Source: Veillonella parvula (lineage in GTDB: Bacteria > Bacillota > Negativicutes > Veillonellales > Veillonellaceae). Taken from it: 64,000 bases of DNA. The translations under genes were made by a program, and so were the position numbers. The stretch lies in contig NZ_CP138632.1 of the NCBI RefSeq assembly GCF_036456085.1, positions 1,965,001 through 2,029,000 of the forward strand, read 5' to 3'. Of this stretch, positions 6,765-47,515 are shown in pieces. Below the pieces are notes generated by a model. That model ran no database searches and was not told the DNA's origin. It saw nothing but the letters and a program-made list of their open reading frames with translations. Numbering within the stretch: the first letter of the stretch is position 1; each line of letters opens with the position of its first letter.

Positions 6765-7172
6765 CTACTTCTTGTTTTTGCACTTTTTACAAATCCCTGC
6801 GATCTCAAGGTGATGTTCTGTTACAGTAAATCCTGCATCGTTAAGTTCTTGTGGCATTTCTACGACGGGACAGGTATGGAGCGGTATCATGGCACCACAG
6901 CTCATACATACAGCATAGTGGCGATGTGTATGAGGGGTAATTTCATAATATGCCATCTCACTACCCATGAGCGTGGTACGTGTAACGATACCCTTAGTTT
7001 CTAATAGTTCAAGTGTACGGTAGATAGTAGACATCCAAGTAGTGCTACCGTCACCTAAGCGTTCTGCGATTTCAAGGGCTGTAATAGGTTTATCTGTAGT
7101 TGTTAATACAGACCAAATGGCTTCGCGCTGTTTGGTCTTTTTTATGCCTTCCGGCCAAGCTGTTGTATTCAT
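6765..7172 (-). CDS. zur: Fur-family transcriptional regulator, probably the zinc regulator Zur
   Basis: Metal-sensing repressor of 135 residues. An N-terminal winged helix (KTKQREAIWSVL, ALEIAERLGD, STIYRTLELLETKGIV) is followed by a dimerisation domain. That domain has the HTHRHY metal ligands, a CMSC pair, and a C-terminal CKKC pair for structural zinc. Fur, Zur and PerR cannot be separated by sequence alone. The next genes are a zinc ABC importer, which makes Zur the best guess. AAAGAGAG precedes the ATG. It converges on the dcu gene with a shared terminator. Confidence 0.75.
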   Translation of the reverse strand: MNTTAWPEGIKKTKQREAIWSVLTTTDKPITALEIAERLGDGSTTWMSTIYRTLELLETKGIVTRTTLMGSEMAYYEITPHTHRHYAVCMSCGAMIPLHTCPVVEMPQELNDAGFTVTEHHLEIAGICKKCKNKK

Positions 7173-7381: not shown

Positions 7382-8192
7382 TTATTTGCTAAATTGCACG
7401 CGTCGTATGATAGCTCGAATATTCTTAATGATTAATACTACTAGTAAAATACCTACCGATGTTAGAGACACGAAGCCACCAGGAGCTACGTTAAGGAAGT
7501 AGGATCCAAAGAGTCCAATGATCATAGCGAGTAAGCTAAATCCAATGGAACATAGTAAAGTCGTTCTAAATCCTTTTTCTAGTTGTAGTGCCGATGCCAC
7601 AGGCAAGGCAATCATGGCACTTAGTACAAGAACGCCGACAATTTTAATGGAAATAGACACGGCGGCAGCCATTAAGATGGCAAAGATATAGTTAATAAAA
7701 TCTACCTTAACACCTGCTACACGAGCGGCCTCTTCATCATAGGCGATGTAAAGAAGTGAGTTGTATAGGAAATATAAGGTGAGTACAGATAAGATTGTAA
7801 GCACAGCAATACTAATCATATCAGTTGCGTTTACCGTTAGGATGCTACCAAAAAAGAATACATTTGCGTTAGCCTTTAGTTTGCCTGAGCTAATAAGCGT
7901 AATAGCTGTACCAATACTGAGGGATAAGATTATAGTAAGAATCAAATCGAGATGATGAGAGAAGTATTTTCGCAAGAACTCGATGAGGGCACCGCAGATG
8001 GCGGTAAAGATAAATGCTCCTAGAATAGGATTTGTATTTGTTAATAGACCTAATGTAATCCCTGCAAGGGACGCATGGCTCATGGTATCGCCAATCATAC
8101 TAGAGCGACGCAATACCATGAAAATACCGATACATGGGCACAATAGGGATATGCAGATAGCTACGAAGAAGGCATTTTGCATAAAATCATAA

Positions 8193-8200
<8 letters not shown>
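7382..8200 (-). CDS. znuB: Metal ABC transporter permease ZnuB
   Basis: Integral membrane subunit of a zinc (or manganese) ABC-3 family importer, 272 residues with about eight to nine hydrophobic helices. CIGIFMVLRRSSMIGDTMSHASLAGI near the N-terminus and the VSISIKIVGVLVLSAMIALPVASA region are typical of the family. ATG 8200 is chosen because AGGAGGTGCACC lies directly upstream; it overlaps the end of znuC by 8 bp, implying translational coupling. Transcribed with znuC, divergently from znuA. Zinc rather than manganese is inferred from the regulator next door. Confidence 0.85.
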
Positions 8201-8996
<796 letters not shown>

Positions 8997-9060
8997 ATGA
9001 AAACCACATTTCTGATTGACAAAATTCTAAGTAAGTTTATACTATAACTATATTACAAAT

Positions 9061-9083
9061 GCAACTGAGTCGCAACTGCAACT
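9061..9083. promoter_or_regulatory. Candidate zinc-regulator operator, GCAACT direct repeats
   Basis: GCAACTG occurs at 9061 and 9072 (11 bp apart, about one helical turn), with a third GCAACT at 9078. It lies midway in the 147-bp divergent region between znuCB and znuA, where a shared repressor site is expected. The sequence does not match the classic Zur palindrome, so the assignment is positional. Confidence 0.35.
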
Positions 9084-9143
9084 AAAGAATGGAGTGTATT
9101 CTATATAGGCATAGCGATCAGGATTTTACAAAGGAGGACTACG

Positions 9144-10058
9144 ATGATCAAGAAACTGATTTTGTTAGTTGTAGGTATTATGATGGCTGCTTTATTTGCA
9201 GGTTGTGGCAACGATACACCGAATGCACAGAAGGAGCAAGCAGGTAAAAAAATCCAAGTGGTAACAAGCTTTAATGCAATGGCTGAGTTTACAAAGGCTA
9301 TTGGTGGTGACAAGGTAGAGGTATCTACTATTATACCAGATGGCGTGGAACCACATGATTTCGAGTTGAAGCCTGAAAATATGAAACAATTGGCGACAGC
9401 TCAAGTATTTGTATATAACGGTTTTGGTATGGAGCCTTGGGCAAAACAAGCTATCGAAGCAGCTAAAAATGATAAACTCGTATCTGTTGTAGCTACTGAA
9501 GGTGTTGAAGCTATTAAAAATACTGACCCAGAAGAAATTAAAGAACATGGTGCAGAAGATCCTCATGCATGGTTATCTTTGAAAAATGCTAAAATTGAAG
9601 TGAAAAATATCAAGGATGCCCTTGTAAAAGTTGATCCAGCAAACAAGGATTATTATGAAAAGAATTATACTGAATACATTGCTAAATTAGATGCAATGAT
9701 TAAAAAATATGAAGAACAATTCGCTAAAGCTCCTCATAAAAACTTTGTTACAGGCCATGCAGCGTTTGCGTACCTATGCCGTGACTTTGGTTTAGAACAA
9801 AATAGTGTGGAAGATGTATTTGCTGAAGGCGAACCTAATGCAGCACAATTGGCTAAACTCATCGAATACGCTAAAGAAAACCATATTACTACTATCTTTG
9901 CAGAAGAAATGGCTAGTCCAGAAGTATCCAAAACTTTGGCACAAGAAGTAGGCGCTAAGGTAGAAACTATTTACACTATCGAAAGTAACGAAGATAATAA
10001 AACATACTTAGAACGTATGGATGAAAACCTTACAAAAATTGCAGCATCTTTGCAATAA
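9144..10058 (+). CDS. znuA: Zinc ABC transporter substrate-binding lipoprotein ZnuA
   Basis: Cluster A-I solute-binding protein of 304 residues that captures zinc outside the inner membrane. A lipoprotein signal ends in LFAGC with Cys21 as the lipidation site. Metal ligands are visible in VEPHDFELKP, DPHAWLS, TGHAAFAYLCRDFGL and the FAEEMASPEVSKTLA region. There is no His-rich loop, which many ZnuA proteins have, so manganese cannot be excluded. AAAGGAGGA precedes ATG 9144. It is transcribed away from znuCB and has its own strong terminator. Confidence 0.88.
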   Translation: MIKKLILLVVGIMMAALFAGCGNDTPNAQKEQAGKKIQVVTSFNAMAEFTKAIGGDKVEVSTIIPDGVEPHDFELKPENMKQLATAQVFVYNGFGMEPWAKQAIEAAKNDKLVSVVATEGVEAIKNTDPEEIKEHGAEDPHAWLSLKNAKIEVKNIKDALVKVDPANKDYYEKNYTEYIAKLDAMIKKYEEQFAKAPHKNFVTGHAAFAYLCRDFGLEQNSVEDVFAEGEPNAAQLAKLIEYAKENHITTIFAEEMASPEVSKTLAQEVGAKVETIYTIESNEDNKTYLERMDENLTKIAASLQ

Positions 10059-43079: not shown

Positions 43080-43646
43080 ATGAGCTCTACTGTATCAAAA
43101 CAAACTCGCATTACCACCCGTCAGTTAACGATGACAGCACTCTTTGTGGCGCTAATCGCGGTTGGTGCTTTCATACGGGTCCCATTACCGAATTGTCCGT
43201 TTACATTGCAAATCTTATTTACTACATTAGCGGGCATTGTTTTAGGTAGTCGTTTAGGTGCCGCTAGTGTTGGCATTTATATTGTACTAGGCCTTGTTGG
43301 GGTTCCTATTTTTACATCTGGTGGTGGTCCTAGTTATATTTTGCAACCTACCTTTGGTTATTTAATTGGCTTTATGGTTGGTGCGTATGCAGTAGGACGC
43401 ATTGCAGAGACAATGGATACACTATCGTTTAAACGTTTGCTAGCCGGATCTATATTAAATCTATTTATTGTATATGGTCTTGGCATGGTGTACCTATACT
43501 TTATTATGAATCTGTATTTAGGTAAGCCGATTGGTGTGGAAGCTGTCATTATTACATGCTTCCTAATCCCAGTTGGCCCAGATATTTTCTTGTGCGCTGT
43601 AGCAGCATCTCTTGGCAAGAGAATTATTAAAGAATTACAGCACTAA
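43080..43646 (+). CDS. bioY: Biotin transporter BioY
   Basis: Inner-membrane S-component of the ECF biotin importer, 188 residues and about six helices. The family signature is clear: RVPLPNCPFTLQILFTTLAG, GVPIFTSGGGPSYILQPTFGYLIGF, and a late Asp in VGPDIFLCAVAASLG. AATGGAGG precedes the ATG. No EcfA/EcfT genes are adjacent, so it may work alone or with a shared energising module. Complements bioD/bioA at the start of the window. Confidence 0.93.
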   Translation: MSSTVSKQTRITTRQLTMTALFVALIAVGAFIRVPLPNCPFTLQILFTTLAGIVLGSRLGAASVGIYIVLGLVGVPIFTSGGGPSYILQPTFGYLIGFMVGAYAVGRIAETMDTLSFKRLLAGSILNLFIVYGLGMVYLYFIMNLYLGKPIGVEAVIITCFLIPVGPDIFLCAVAASLGKRIIKELQH

Positions 43647-43866: not shown

Positions 43867-44631
43867 TTAAGGGTATACATAGCCTAATATAGGTTCTGCA
43901 GATTTGATTTTTGTAATCTCTACATATGGTTGTTTACGACCGTGGAAGTCTCGCGTAGAAACCTTTCCTTCAATCGATACCCATTGTTCATTTTGTAAGC
44001 TATCACCATCTGTTTTATAGGCTGTCATGCCAATAGGGGCAACGTCAGCAATACAACAAGCCATAGCCATACGAGAAATAGTAAATTCGTTAGATTTTAA
44101 TGTATTATCTTCGCGGTTCACATAGCCTGTCATATAAACTGTGTAGTCTTTATATTGATCCGCATTAGATCCAACTTTTACAATGGTTTGATAGAAATTG
44201 TCTGAGTTCAAAACGATTTCTTTTTTGTCCTTGGAAATTCCTGGCTCTTTACTTTCACTGTTAACGGTGACAACCTCTCCAATAGCATCGTTTGTAAAGT
44301 CAAAATTGTTAGTATCATCGTTTACACGAGCGGCACCATGAACGCCTGTTGATGGTACAAGAACAGGAGGAACGATGAGCAACATAATAGGAATAATAAT
44401 TGGAACGATAGATTTCCAGTTATGTTTGTAGTATTTTGACGGAGCCCAAATAATCGTCGCTAAACCGCCTAAAATAAGGGCAACGCCACTAATACCTAGT
44501 AAAAGTTCATAACGAGGTGCAATATAGTTCAAATAACGACCTGTCACAATGAGGTAAATACAACAGATACCTAAGATGAGATACAATAGACCTTTCACGA
44601 TAGAAAAGCGATCTTTCAGTCCTAATGTCAT
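43867..44631 (-). CDS. TIGR03943/DUF1980 family putative permease partner (YcgQ-like)
   Basis: A 254-residue protein: two N-terminal helix pairs (about 12-28, 44-62 and 75-90), then a soluble domain. That domain contains DYTVYMTGYVNREDN, RMAMACCIADVAPIG and a C-terminal WVSIEGKVSTRDF OB-like fold. The CC-IADVAP segment is the family hallmark. These proteins occur next to DUF318 permeases, and the next gene upstream is such a permease, so they likely form one complex. Substrate unknown; the CobW-type GTPase in the operon suggests metal trafficking. Confidence 0.75.
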   Translation of the reverse strand: MTLGLKDRFSIVKGLLYLILGICCIYLIVTGRYLNYIAPRYELLLGISGVALILGGLATIIWAPSKYYKHNWKSIVPIIIPIMLLIVPPVLVPSTGVHGAARVNDDTNNFDFTNDAIGEVVTVNSESKEPGISKDKKEIVLNSDNFYQTIVKVGSNADQYKDYTVYMTGYVNREDNTLKSNEFTISRMAMACCIADVAPIGMTAYKTDGDSLQNEQWVSIEGKVSTRDFHGRKQPYVEITKIKSAEPILGYVYP

Positions 44632-44689: not shown

Positions 44690-46225
44690 TTAGCTAAGAA
44701 AGAATTTGAATACTAATGCTGCTATATAGGACATAACGGCAATCGTTATACTTAATCGTATGATAAATGAGGTAGGCATATATTGTTTTAATATATATAC
44801 GTTTTTGATATCTAACATCGGACCTAAGATGAGAAAGCCCATTACGGAACTAATAGGAAATAAGGTGCTCAAGGATTTACCGATGATGGCATCTGATGTA
44901 GAGCAGATTGAAAAGAAGAATGCTAACATCAGCAAAATTGGAATGGCTGTAAATTCTGGCAAGGTTAATCCTGCGTTGAGAAGCCAAGGCTTGCCATACA
45001 CTTGAACTATAGATAGTACAGTTGCCGCCATGGAAAAATAGAATAAGAGTTGAGAAAACTCTCGTTCCATATGGACTAACAATCTTTTTTTATCGATATG
45101 TTTAGTTTTAGTTGTTTCTAAAACGATTTCTTCGTAGCTAAGATTCTGTGGTGTTCTTGCTTTCAAAATAGATGTGGCTGGAGGCCAAAATCGGAACGAT
45201 AGGGCTACTAACAAGGCAACACCTAGTCCTAAAACGATACGCCATACGGAGAGCATGGGATTGTCAGGAAACGCATACCATGTAGAAAGAATGGTGATAG
45301 GGTTGATAATCGGGCTAGCGAGCATAAATAAAAGAGCTACTGATAAAGGGATGCCTCGATCTATTAGCGCCTTGAATAAGGGGATGATGGCACAGTCACA
45401 AATTGGCAAGGCAAAGCCACTGACCATAGCAGCCCCATAGCTTTTCAAAGAATGGTCACCTAACAGTTTTAGTAATACTCGTTGTGGTACGAAATAGCGA
45501 ATAATCGTTGAGCCTACCGTGCCTAATAAAAGGAATGGAATGGCCTCGATGATGAGGCCCGTGATTATGGCGAAGCATTGGTGAATGGAATAGGGGATGT
45601 CATGGCGAAAAGCTGTGACCAACAGTATATAGGTTGTAATACCAATAACTAATAGATTAGGAATGAGTCCCCATGTGGAATTCCGGCACAGTTGTTCTAC
45701 TTTTTCTGGTGTAGGAGCTGTTATAATTTTAGCCTCTCCGTTGTAGGTACGTAGTAAAGCGTGATGTGTATTGGATTCTGTGATAATACAATCTGCACTA
45801 TACAATTGACTCATTACATCATTACCTAAACCAGGGAGTATGGTTGAGACAAATTGATCGGTACAAATATACAATACCTTTTCTACTTGTAATAGGTGGC
45901 TTAATATATCGCTATATAGTAAGGCTTCTAGTTGATGAAAGCTTACCATGCCATTCCACTCAATCCATAGCTCTTTTGGCTGTAGTCGTTTTAAATAATC
46001 CCCGATTTTACAGGCTATCAATTCGTAAGACTTGATATCGCTAGGAACAATGGCACTGAGTTCATCCGCATTGAGTTGTAAGGGCTCTTTGATGAGAGGT
46101 TCACTGCCTTCTTCGGCGCTGATTATTGCGGTACCGCCTAGCTTTTTACGGTATTGTAATTGTTCGTTTATGAACGTGCTTTTACCGGATCCAATAAACC
46201 CTGTAACGATATAAACTGGTATCAT
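44690..46225 (-). CDS. P-loop (COG0523-like) domain fused to a DUF318 permease
   Basis: A 511-residue two-part protein. Residues about 1-185 start MIPVYIVTGFIGSGKSTFINE, a Walker A like that of CobW/COG0523 GTPases, with LWIEWNG where those have YIEPSG. The CxCC metal motif is absent. From about 190 follow roughly nine to ten helices with DUF318 motifs FALPICDCAIIPLF, LLFMLASPIINPITIL and FFSICSTSDAII. ATG 46225 overlaps the upstream CobW stop (ATGA). Stand-alone DUF318 permeases lack a P-loop, so this fusion is unusual and suggests nucleotide-driven or chaperone-coupled transport. Confidence 0.8.
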   Translation of the reverse strand: MIPVYIVTGFIGSGKSTFINEQLQYRKKLGGTAIISAEEGSEPLIKEPLQLNADELSAIVPSDIKSYELIACKIGDYLKRLQPKELWIEWNGMVSFHQLEALLYSDILSHLLQVEKVLYICTDQFVSTILPGLGNDVMSQLYSADCIITESNTHHALLRTYNGEAKIITAPTPEKVEQLCRNSTWGLIPNLLVIGITTYILLVTAFRHDIPYSIHQCFAIITGLIIEAIPFLLLGTVGSTIIRYFVPQRVLLKLLGDHSLKSYGAAMVSGFALPICDCAIIPLFKALIDRGIPLSVALLFMLASPIINPITILSTWYAFPDNPMLSVWRIVLGLGVALLVALSFRFWPPATSILKARTPQNLSYEEIVLETTKTKHIDKKRLLVHMEREFSQLLFYFSMAATVLSIVQVYGKPWLLNAGLTLPEFTAIPILLMLAFFFSICSTSDAIIGKSLSTLFPISSVMGFLILGPMLDIKNVYILKQYMPTSFIIRLSITIAVMSYIAALVFKFFLS

Positions 46226-47091
46226 GATTGACACACTTCGTTATGTATCATTGGTACATTAAAATCTGTGCCGATAACGACTAAACTATAGTCATTAGTT
46301 TCACTAGGTGAAAGCGAACAGTAATGAGTGCCGTATTGGAGTTCGTGAGGACCTTCCGTGGTTGGTACAATCCCTTTGGCACGAAGCACCGTATCAGGCA
46401 TGCCTTCTAAAATGGTTTTCCATTGTGCAAGACTAAGGGTGCGCAAATCCTTAAAGGTATGACTCATAAATAAATGTTCATCGTGTAAGCAGTGATCATC
46501 ATGACAATGATACAGGCGCTTGATGTAATCACGCAAACCAATGGTATCCCATGCTTCTTCATGAATTGGTGTATGTGGCGCGAGGTCGCGAATCATACGT
46601 TTTGTAATGCTTGTCTGTTGAATATCTTCTGTATGGCTCAAAAAAATTGCATCACTATGAGTGATTTGATCCTTGAAGAAAAGACCAAAATTTTTGATAA
46701 ACATTGGTGCTTGCATAGCATCGACAGTCGTTATTGATGCGTGAATGTAAGCAGATTTTGCAATGTCCTCGTCGTTACAAGTATGGATGATTTCACTGAG
46801 TTTGCTGACACCTGATGGCTCGATGTAGATCATATCGATTTTGTAATTTTGCAGAATATCAAGTAGTGCTTGTTGGAAATTTCCTTGTAAGCTACAGCAA
46901 ATACAGCCAGATGTTACTTCACGGACCGTGGCCCCTGTTTTTGCAAGATTAGCAGCATCGAGGCTAGTTTCACCAAAATCGTTTTCTATAATAAGAATTT
47001 TATCTTTCGATGTATGTTCTTTTAGTATATGTTGTAAGAATGTTGTTTTTCCAGAACCTAGAAATCCGGATATGATAACTATTGGAATCAT
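46222..47091 (-). CDS. CobW/COG0523-family metal-chaperone GTPase
   Basis: A 289-residue G3E GTPase. Walker A GFLGSGKTT (9-17), the metal-binding CICC motif in TSGCICCSLQGNF near residue 63, and IYIEPSGVSKL are all present. A His-rich segment (HCHDDHCLHDEHLF, near 194-207) may bind metal. It lies at the head of the operon behind GGAGGTATAT and overlaps the permease fusion. COG0523 proteins deliver Zn, Co, Ni or Fe; zinc is plausible here but not proven. Confidence 0.85.
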   Translation of the reverse strand: MIPIVIISGFLGSGKTTFLQHILKEHTSKDKILIIENDFGETSLDAANLAKTGATVREVTSGCICCSLQGNFQQALLDILQNYKIDMIYIEPSGVSKLSEIIHTCNDEDIAKSAYIHASITTVDAMQAPMFIKNFGLFFKDQITHSDAIFLSHTEDIQQTSITKRMIRDLAPHTPIHEEAWDTIGLRDYIKRLYHCHDDHCLHDEHLFMSHTFKDLRTLSLAQWKTILEGMPDTVLRAKGIVPTTEGPHELQYGTHYCSLSPSETNDYSLVVIGTDFNVPMIHNEVCQS

Positions 47092-47515
47092 ATATACCTC
47101 CTGCGTAATGTAAACACAGTATACACCTATAGGATAACACAGAAAATACTCTATGGGGTATATGGAGACTAGTGAATGAGTCAGAGTTTAACAGCTTTTT
47201 TTGAAATTTATAGATTATATACTATATATGAGTATACTGGCACATGTAGTTGATATTCATAATTATTTATAAATAAAACGATGCATTCCATGTTGTTCAT
47301 ATATGAAAGAATACTCCTGTATGAATAAATATTTATTTATGTAGTTGAAAAATTTTTATGAAAAAAATCCCTCCTACAAGATAATTCAGTTGGAGAGATG
47401 GCTGAATTACTTATAGGAGGGTTGGAGAGTCAATATTACATGGGTCTCGTAACTTGATGTGTTATTTGCTTATAGTATAACAAATTATACATCAAAAATA
47501 TAGTAATTATTTATT
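47092..47515. other. 424-bp intergenic region upstream of the metal operon and downstream of pepD
   Basis: No gene. It contains the promoter region of the CobW operon near 47100-47220 (no operator recognised) and the pepD terminator at 47361-47421. The rest is AT-rich with short palindromic T/A stretches. Confidence 0.4.
47361..47421 (-). terminator. Terminator of pepD
   Basis: On the - strand CCCTCCTA (47421-47414) pairs with TAGGAGGG (47376-47369), with the AATTCAG/CTGAATT inner pair, followed by ATTTTTTT. Confidence 0.8.

Follow-up and report, generated by a model that had tools for sequence, protein, structure and literature searches.

The client proteins of most COG0523 GTPases are unknown. 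The substrate of the known ArsP_1/DUF318-TIGR03943 pairs, among them B. subtilis YcgR-YcgQ and S. pyogenes ScfA-ScfB, is itself unknown (PMC5584981), as is the mechanism of such pairs. Both G3E domains and ArsP_1 permeases have been described before, as have the gene neighbourhoods in which they occur. Here we describe a protein that links these two poorly understood families, encoded in a 64,000-nucleotide stretch of Veillonella parvula DNA (the window). The protein, P0001, shares its permease domain and an adjacent DUF1980 partner with YcgR-YcgQ and ScfA-ScfB and, unlike those pairs, begins with a G3E domain. It lies between two further genes of the same operon:

44690..46225, minus strand: P0001, CxCC-less G3E domain and ArsP_1/DUF318 permease, 511 aa (Pfam, alignment of relatives, profile match to YjiA)
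45668..46225, minus strand: G3E/SIMIBI domain, P0001 residues 1-186 (profile match to YjiA; model aligns with HypB, UreG and YjiA at Z 12-13, rmsd 2.9-3.4)
45611..45667, minus strand: extra transmembrane helix, P0001 residues 187-205, between the G3E domain and the permease (hydropathy)
44702..45586, minus strand: ArsP_1 permease domain, P0001 residues 214-508 (PF03773, E=1.2e-47)
46222..47091, minus strand: P0002, COG0523 GTPase with CICC and CobW_C, proposed metal carrier (PF02492, E=1.8e-39; PF07683 above cut-off; YjiA match at 9.6e-24)
43867..44631, minus strand: P0003, TIGR03943/DUF1980 partner with three predicted transmembrane helices and a C-terminal beta-barrel domain (TIGR03943, 129.1 bits against a cut-off of 88.8)

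A G3E domain fused to a complete permease

The original prediction, made from this DNA alone, described a P-loop domain fused to a full DUF318 permease, and both halves hold up. P0001 is a 511-residue open frame (46225-44690, minus strand; translation might alternatively begin at a GTG in the same frame, 46234), and its permease half matches the ArsP_1 profile nearly end to end (profile positions 2-294 of 294; 162.9 bits against a Pfam cut-off of 32.3). A contig of Veillonella parvula SKV38 spans all 511 residues, with 100% identity in the best aligned segment; other Veillonella fusions are 65-86% identical to P0001, and more distant fusions 28-32%. The SKV38 copy and the distant fusions rule out chance and sequencing error as the cause of the fusion. 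An artefact of annotation or assembly that merged two genes found no support and is refuted by the recurrence of the same frame at similar length in many unrelated assemblies.

In Pfam, PF02492 matches P0001 at residues 3-40 only, barely over its cut-off (22.3 bits against 20.7), so that the N-terminal domain (N-domain) seemed partial. As a plain single-sequence query against the PDB, P0001 found no match. A family profile was required: built from 20 fused sequences, it matches E. coli YjiA across residues 3-176 (8e-15), which shows that the whole N-domain, beyond the P-loop alone, is COG0523-like. We also compared a structural model of P0001 (mean pLDDT 68.5, mostly 70-88 in the N-domain, and thus of moderate confidence only) with solved structures using VIA-align. 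Residues 1-184 of this moderately confident model align best with HypB (Z 13.3, 158 residues aligned, rmsd 3.0), UreG (Z 12.8) and YjiA (Z 12.1, 162 residues aligned, rmsd 2.9, 22% identity). As judged from profile and model, the N-domain is a full G3E/SIMIBI domain; the prediction would have failed had the model shown another fold, and it withstood this check.

Two nucleotide-site motifs are kept:

46178..46201, minus strand: Walker A motif GFIGSGKS, P0001 residues 9-16 (G9, F10, G14 and K15 invariant in 20 fused proteins)
45950..45964, minus strand: G3E ExxG motif IEWNG, P0001 residues 88-92 (E89 and N91 invariant, G92 in at least 90% of 20 fused proteins)

The predicted CobW-type Walker A is there, with its P-loop GxxxxGK invariant, and E38 and G40 are likewise unchanged in all 20 fused proteins. 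What had been read as a partial Walker-B-like motif, WIEWNG, is instead a complete G3E ExxG in the form E-x-N-G; its E-x-N occurs in 28 of 28 relatives across three architectures. CxCC is missing from the N-domain, as predicted, and from all 28 relatives. The guanine-recognition motif NKxD is also missing, in P0001 and in most fused relatives, which makes GTP specificity doubtful for the fused form; some relatives fused to DUF1980_C carry NRCD. Pfam shows no CobW_C (PF07683) match in P0001.

We take E37, C66 and C67 as the zinc-site residues of YjiA, in line with the PDB titles of 4ixm and 4ixn. In the HMMER alignment to YjiA, a non-acidic position lies opposite E37, the invariant E38 of P0001 lies opposite YjiA E39, and neither C66 nor C67 has a cysteine counterpart in the fused family. 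By this alignment all three zinc ligands are replaced in the P0001 N-domain, and the proposal that it is chaperone-like does not survive in the metal-binding sense. The domain is nonetheless constrained and no decaying relic, given a dN/dS among Veillonella species of about 0.09-0.11 (permease, 0.04). A pseudo-GTPase scaffold, in which the N-domain binds no nucleotide and only aids assembly or stability of the permease, would suit the loss of CxCC and NKxD, the degenerate middle region and the low similarity; we consider it quite improbable, since a kept nucleotide site is indicated both by the dN/dS of about 0.1 and by the Walker A lysine, E38 and E-x-N, none of which varies even among very divergent homologues. 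With GxxxxGK, E38 and ExxG all invariant, the N-domain could plausibly act as a nucleotide switch.

The permease half carries its own invariant positions, which we regard as candidate metal ligands from the alignment of 20 fused proteins:

45392..45400, minus strand: C276-D277-C278, invariant
44891..44905, minus strand: C441-S-T-S-D445, with C441 and D445 invariant

The model of this half aligned with elevator-type carriers (Pho90, NaS1, INDY) and with CNT at Z of about 12-13, values that helical proteins can reach by chance, and gave no structural match to solved ArsP.

Three architectures and a near-constant neighbour

A survey for the same fusion, which the original prediction had proposed, found it in Veillonella and other anaerobes, namely relatives among the Negativicutes and several Clostridia. 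Within the class, 150 genomes were sampled: 10 of the 11 Veillonella carry it, as do three genomes from another genus of the same family (G452, G504, G512) and three from the same order (G496, G500, G532); the one Veillonella with no fused-family match, G520, may reflect either true absence or an assembly gap. An even phylum sample of 398 genomes yielded five cases (G000, G346, G367, G307, G393), and bearers beyond Veillonella include Faecalicatena contorta, Fusibacter paucivorans, Clostridium sp. HBUAS56010 and a Clostridiales MAG. Plasmid and phage collections held the permease half only, without the fusion.

By following tandem COG0523 genes into other genomes, we found the CxCC-less domain in two settings besides the permease fusion. 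At nine loci it is fused to DUF1980_C (PF21537) in proteins of 311-324 aa, with no transmembrane helices in the four checked; this form occurs in 8 of 396 genomes surveyed, and a CxCC COG0523 gene precedes it at 8 of the 9 loci. In two Clostridia it stands alone as a 208-214-aa protein encoded after an ArsP-DUF1980 pair, with one C-terminal transmembrane helix that corresponds in place to helix 187-205 of P0001. Two DUF1980_C fusions have neighbours of separate note: a CobQ/CobB-type gene (L123:4439-5974) and a gene for carbonic anhydrase, a zinc enzyme (L124:4400-4984).

Across all three architectures, a COG0523 gene adjoins the CxCC-less gene at 25 of 28 loci, which are not 28 independent events because some share ancestry (L012/L118 and L014/L016, for example, are near copies). 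The two genes mostly overlap or lie at most 31 bp apart, with wider gaps of 107 bp in L111 and 371 bp in L125; three loci (L015, L129, L139) have no adjoining COG0523 gene, and the partners in L110 and L131 are cut or split, leaving CxCC unseen in the counted frame. In the window this neighbour is P0002, upstream of P0001 and overlapping it by ATGA, and it is the normal COG0523 GTPase with CICC that had been predicted.

The pairing appears to be old. When 58 G domains were placed in one tree, the CxCC COG0523 partners all fell into a single clade (98/90), separate from every CxCC-less domain, which points to an old two-protein pairing. The DUF1980_C form likewise makes up one clade (98/92). 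Of the permease form, 15 members group in one clade (100/99), and two others, L109 and L110, are long-branch outliers of unsure position. In the permease tree the fused proteins cluster, with one unfused member inside (L119). These trees fit a single old lineage that lacks CxCC and underwent few fusions and one loss; the fusions in L109 and L110 may alternatively have arisen independently.

These distributions bear on the main rival to a partnership with P0002, which is the original idea minus its chaperone part: that the N-domain, as proposed for NFeoB, gates the permease to which it is fused by binding and perhaps hydrolysing NTP, while P0002 does not dock. In favour of such a gate are the physical fusion itself and the invariant P-loop and ExxG; FeoB, a metal permease, is known to have NTPase activity (PMC9164220). 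We nevertheless hold it to be rather unlikely. NKxD is lost, the COG0523 neighbour is near-constant, and the domain occurs without a permease: of the 11 genomes that carry the DUF1980_C fusion (in G493 presumed rather than profile-checked), 8 lack any PF03773 match and a ninth shows only one below cut-off. The COG0523 pairing therefore outlasts the permease, and a domain found without a permease and nearly always beside COG0523 argues for partnership with the CxCC GTPase over a self-contained switch.

The downstream gene (44631-43867) is TIGR03943, again as predicted. Its product P0003 shares one motif with the DUF1980_C fusions:

44044..44073, minus strand: R-x-x-M-x-C-C-x-x-D motif of DUF1980_C, P0003 residues 187-196 (invariant residues among 8 partners)

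The five fixed positions (R187, M190, C192, C193, D196) are invariant across 8 P0003-type partners, and the modeled C-terminal domain is a five-stranded barrel that aligns with OB-type domains at Z 8-9. Positive loops of the three predicted transmembrane helices place DUF1980_C of P0003 outside the cytoplasm. The DUF1980_C domain of the G3E fusions (L122-L128), having no transmembrane helix, should be cytosolic, which conflicts with the outside placement in TIGR03943 proteins. Around the operon, Rfam detected no RNA elements. By eye, an intrinsic-terminator-like sequence, CCCTCCTA...TAGGAGGG followed by a T run, lies at window positions 47370-47440 between an upstream peptidase-like gene and the operon, and a 188-aa membrane protein (43080-43646, plus strand) resembles a BioY-type biotin transporter subunit.

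Metal, direction and regulation

Zinc genes lie close to several relatives. A Fur-family gene stands immediately upstream of the operon in L107 and L108, preceded in L108 by an ABC-3 (ZnuB-type) permease gene; L119 reads, in order, ABC-3, Fur, unfused permease, DUF1980; in L110 the operon is followed by ZnuA and an ABC ATPase; and in L137 ZnuA precedes the locus. Three fused loci of the same order as Veillonella (L112-L114) have no zinc genes in view. The window itself holds a zinc ABC importer set spanning 7382..10058:

6765..7172, minus strand: probable zur, Fur-family regulator next to znuBC, in another operon of the window
7382-8227, minus strand: znuB, zinc ABC importer
8193-8996, minus strand: znuC, zinc ABC importer
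9144-10058, plus strand: znuA, zinc ABC importer

Two genes of Bacillus anthracis have Zur bound upstream, one encoding a COG0523 protein and the other an ArsP_1 permease; the latter was interpreted as positively regulated by Zur (PMC6336718). We favour zinc because of the Fur, ABC-3 and ZnuA neighbours, the zur-znuBC-znuA genes of the window and the B. anthracis Zur sites; zinc is the most likely metal of the module, and the permease probably has a role in zinc handling. As a separate observation, the operon in L109 has a CbiM gene for cobalt/nickel uptake upstream (L109:8489-9121), and the metal may vary among lineages.

The direction of transport is ambiguous, since the B. anthracis gene is read as Zur-activated and the nearest named families are efflux families. 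Like those PF03773 relatives, the module could export a soft metal or metalloid (Zn, Cu or an organo-arsenical), with the G3E domain as regulator. The best NCBIfam matches of the P0001 permease are the SO_0444 Cu/Zn efflux family (NF033936, E=5e-13) and SaoE (NF040736), and the invariant CDC and CxxxD motifs suit a soft metal; these matches lie far under the family cut-offs (48.9 of 300 and 47.1 of 325 bits), and the neighbouring Fur and ABC zinc-uptake genes in several relatives fit a shortage of zinc better than an excess. We consider export unlikely, and infer that the module would import its metal, presumably zinc, rather than export it.

The upstream region of the operon offers one regulatory lead:

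47146..47161, minus strand: ATACCCCATAGAGTAT, an inverted repeat that resembles an operator, upstream of the operon (conserved arms and variable spacer in Veillonella; a lead only)

The corresponding motif, ATACCC-N4-GWGTAT, is conserved upstream of the operon in Veillonella. As the signature of a regulon it was rejected, with 17 genome matches at one mismatch against 24 for a reversed control pattern. The palindrome ATACCCATAGGGGTAT occurs in perfect form close to a gene for a nickel/peptide-type ABC binding protein and close to a heavy-metal ATPase fragment (L152:3673, L153:3655). ATACCCCATAGAGTAT and ATACCCATAGGGGTAT are possible metal-regulator operators, with a genome-wide count no higher than the control. 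The ATPase fragment is a 140-aa frame (L153:553-972, minus strand) that matches only the C-terminal end of heavy-metal P-type ATPases, so the gene seems incomplete here; an MFS transporter gene adjoins it (L153:1333-2655, plus strand). A Zur-like operator shared with the znuA or zur upstream regions was not found above shuffled expectation in the source genome.

A proposed docking step and its known parallels

A metal-free domain on the permease beside a metal-binding sister GTPase suggests that the permease is the docking site of a metal carrier. SIMIBI proteins often pair around nucleotide. We therefore put forward, as a tentative but reasonable reading, a zinc-type metal-handling module with nucleotide-dependent handover, composed of P0002 as carrier, the P0001 docking domain and permease, and P0003. 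P0002, with its intact CxCC, would carry the metal. The P0001 N-domain, with no known metal ligand and its nucleotide-site motifs kept, would serve as a membrane-fixed docking partner, and the two would bind nucleotide and pair around it through their homologous G domains. The metal would then be handed over, in a nucleotide-dependent step, at the cytoplasmic mouth of the permease; with the receptor built into the permease in this window, handover would take place at the membrane. P0003 would add another subunit, and its CC-containing domain may relay the metal onward.

Common to the three architectures is a core with three elements: a G3E protein bearing CxCC, a G3E domain without it, and DUF1980_C. 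The permease-fused form includes a permease, and the stand-alone form has one beside it. A general two-GTPase relay, in which a CxCC COG0523 carrier pairs with a CxCC-less G3E receptor in a heterodimer that depends on nucleotide, with the receptor fused to permease, DUF1980_C or membrane anchor, is a doubtful possibility that, if true, would give zinc trafficking a docking step like that of SRP and the SRP receptor. The fusion, lacking its metal site, lying beside an intact COG0523 gene and recurring in three architectures, nominates a specific docking partner for such a GTPase.

In the open-access literature searched, a limited library, we found no description of the fusion or of a CxCC-less E-x-N-G subfamily in three architectures. 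Among known systems, the COG0523 G3E GTPases (YjiA, CobW, ZigA/ZagA) share fold, Walker A, switch-I acidic residue and ExxG with the P0001 N-domain, which differs in lacking CxCC, the E37-type ligand and NKxD, in having Asn rather than Ser/Thr as the third ExxG residue, and in having a permease in place of CobW_C. The SO_0444 and SaoE efflux transporters resemble P0001 weakly in the permease core. FeoB is the nearest parallel for a G domain covalently joined to a metal permease. Its G domain belongs to the TRAFAC class, unlike the SIMIBI/G3E domain of P0001, and no FeoB family matches P0001 at E<=1 in Pfam or NCBIfam; the shared layout would be convergent. Ffh and FtsY are two homologous SIMIBI GTPases, one cargo-carrying and one membrane-bound. 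We propose this pair, with a different cargo, as the parallel for P0002 and P0001, whose dimer we infer here.
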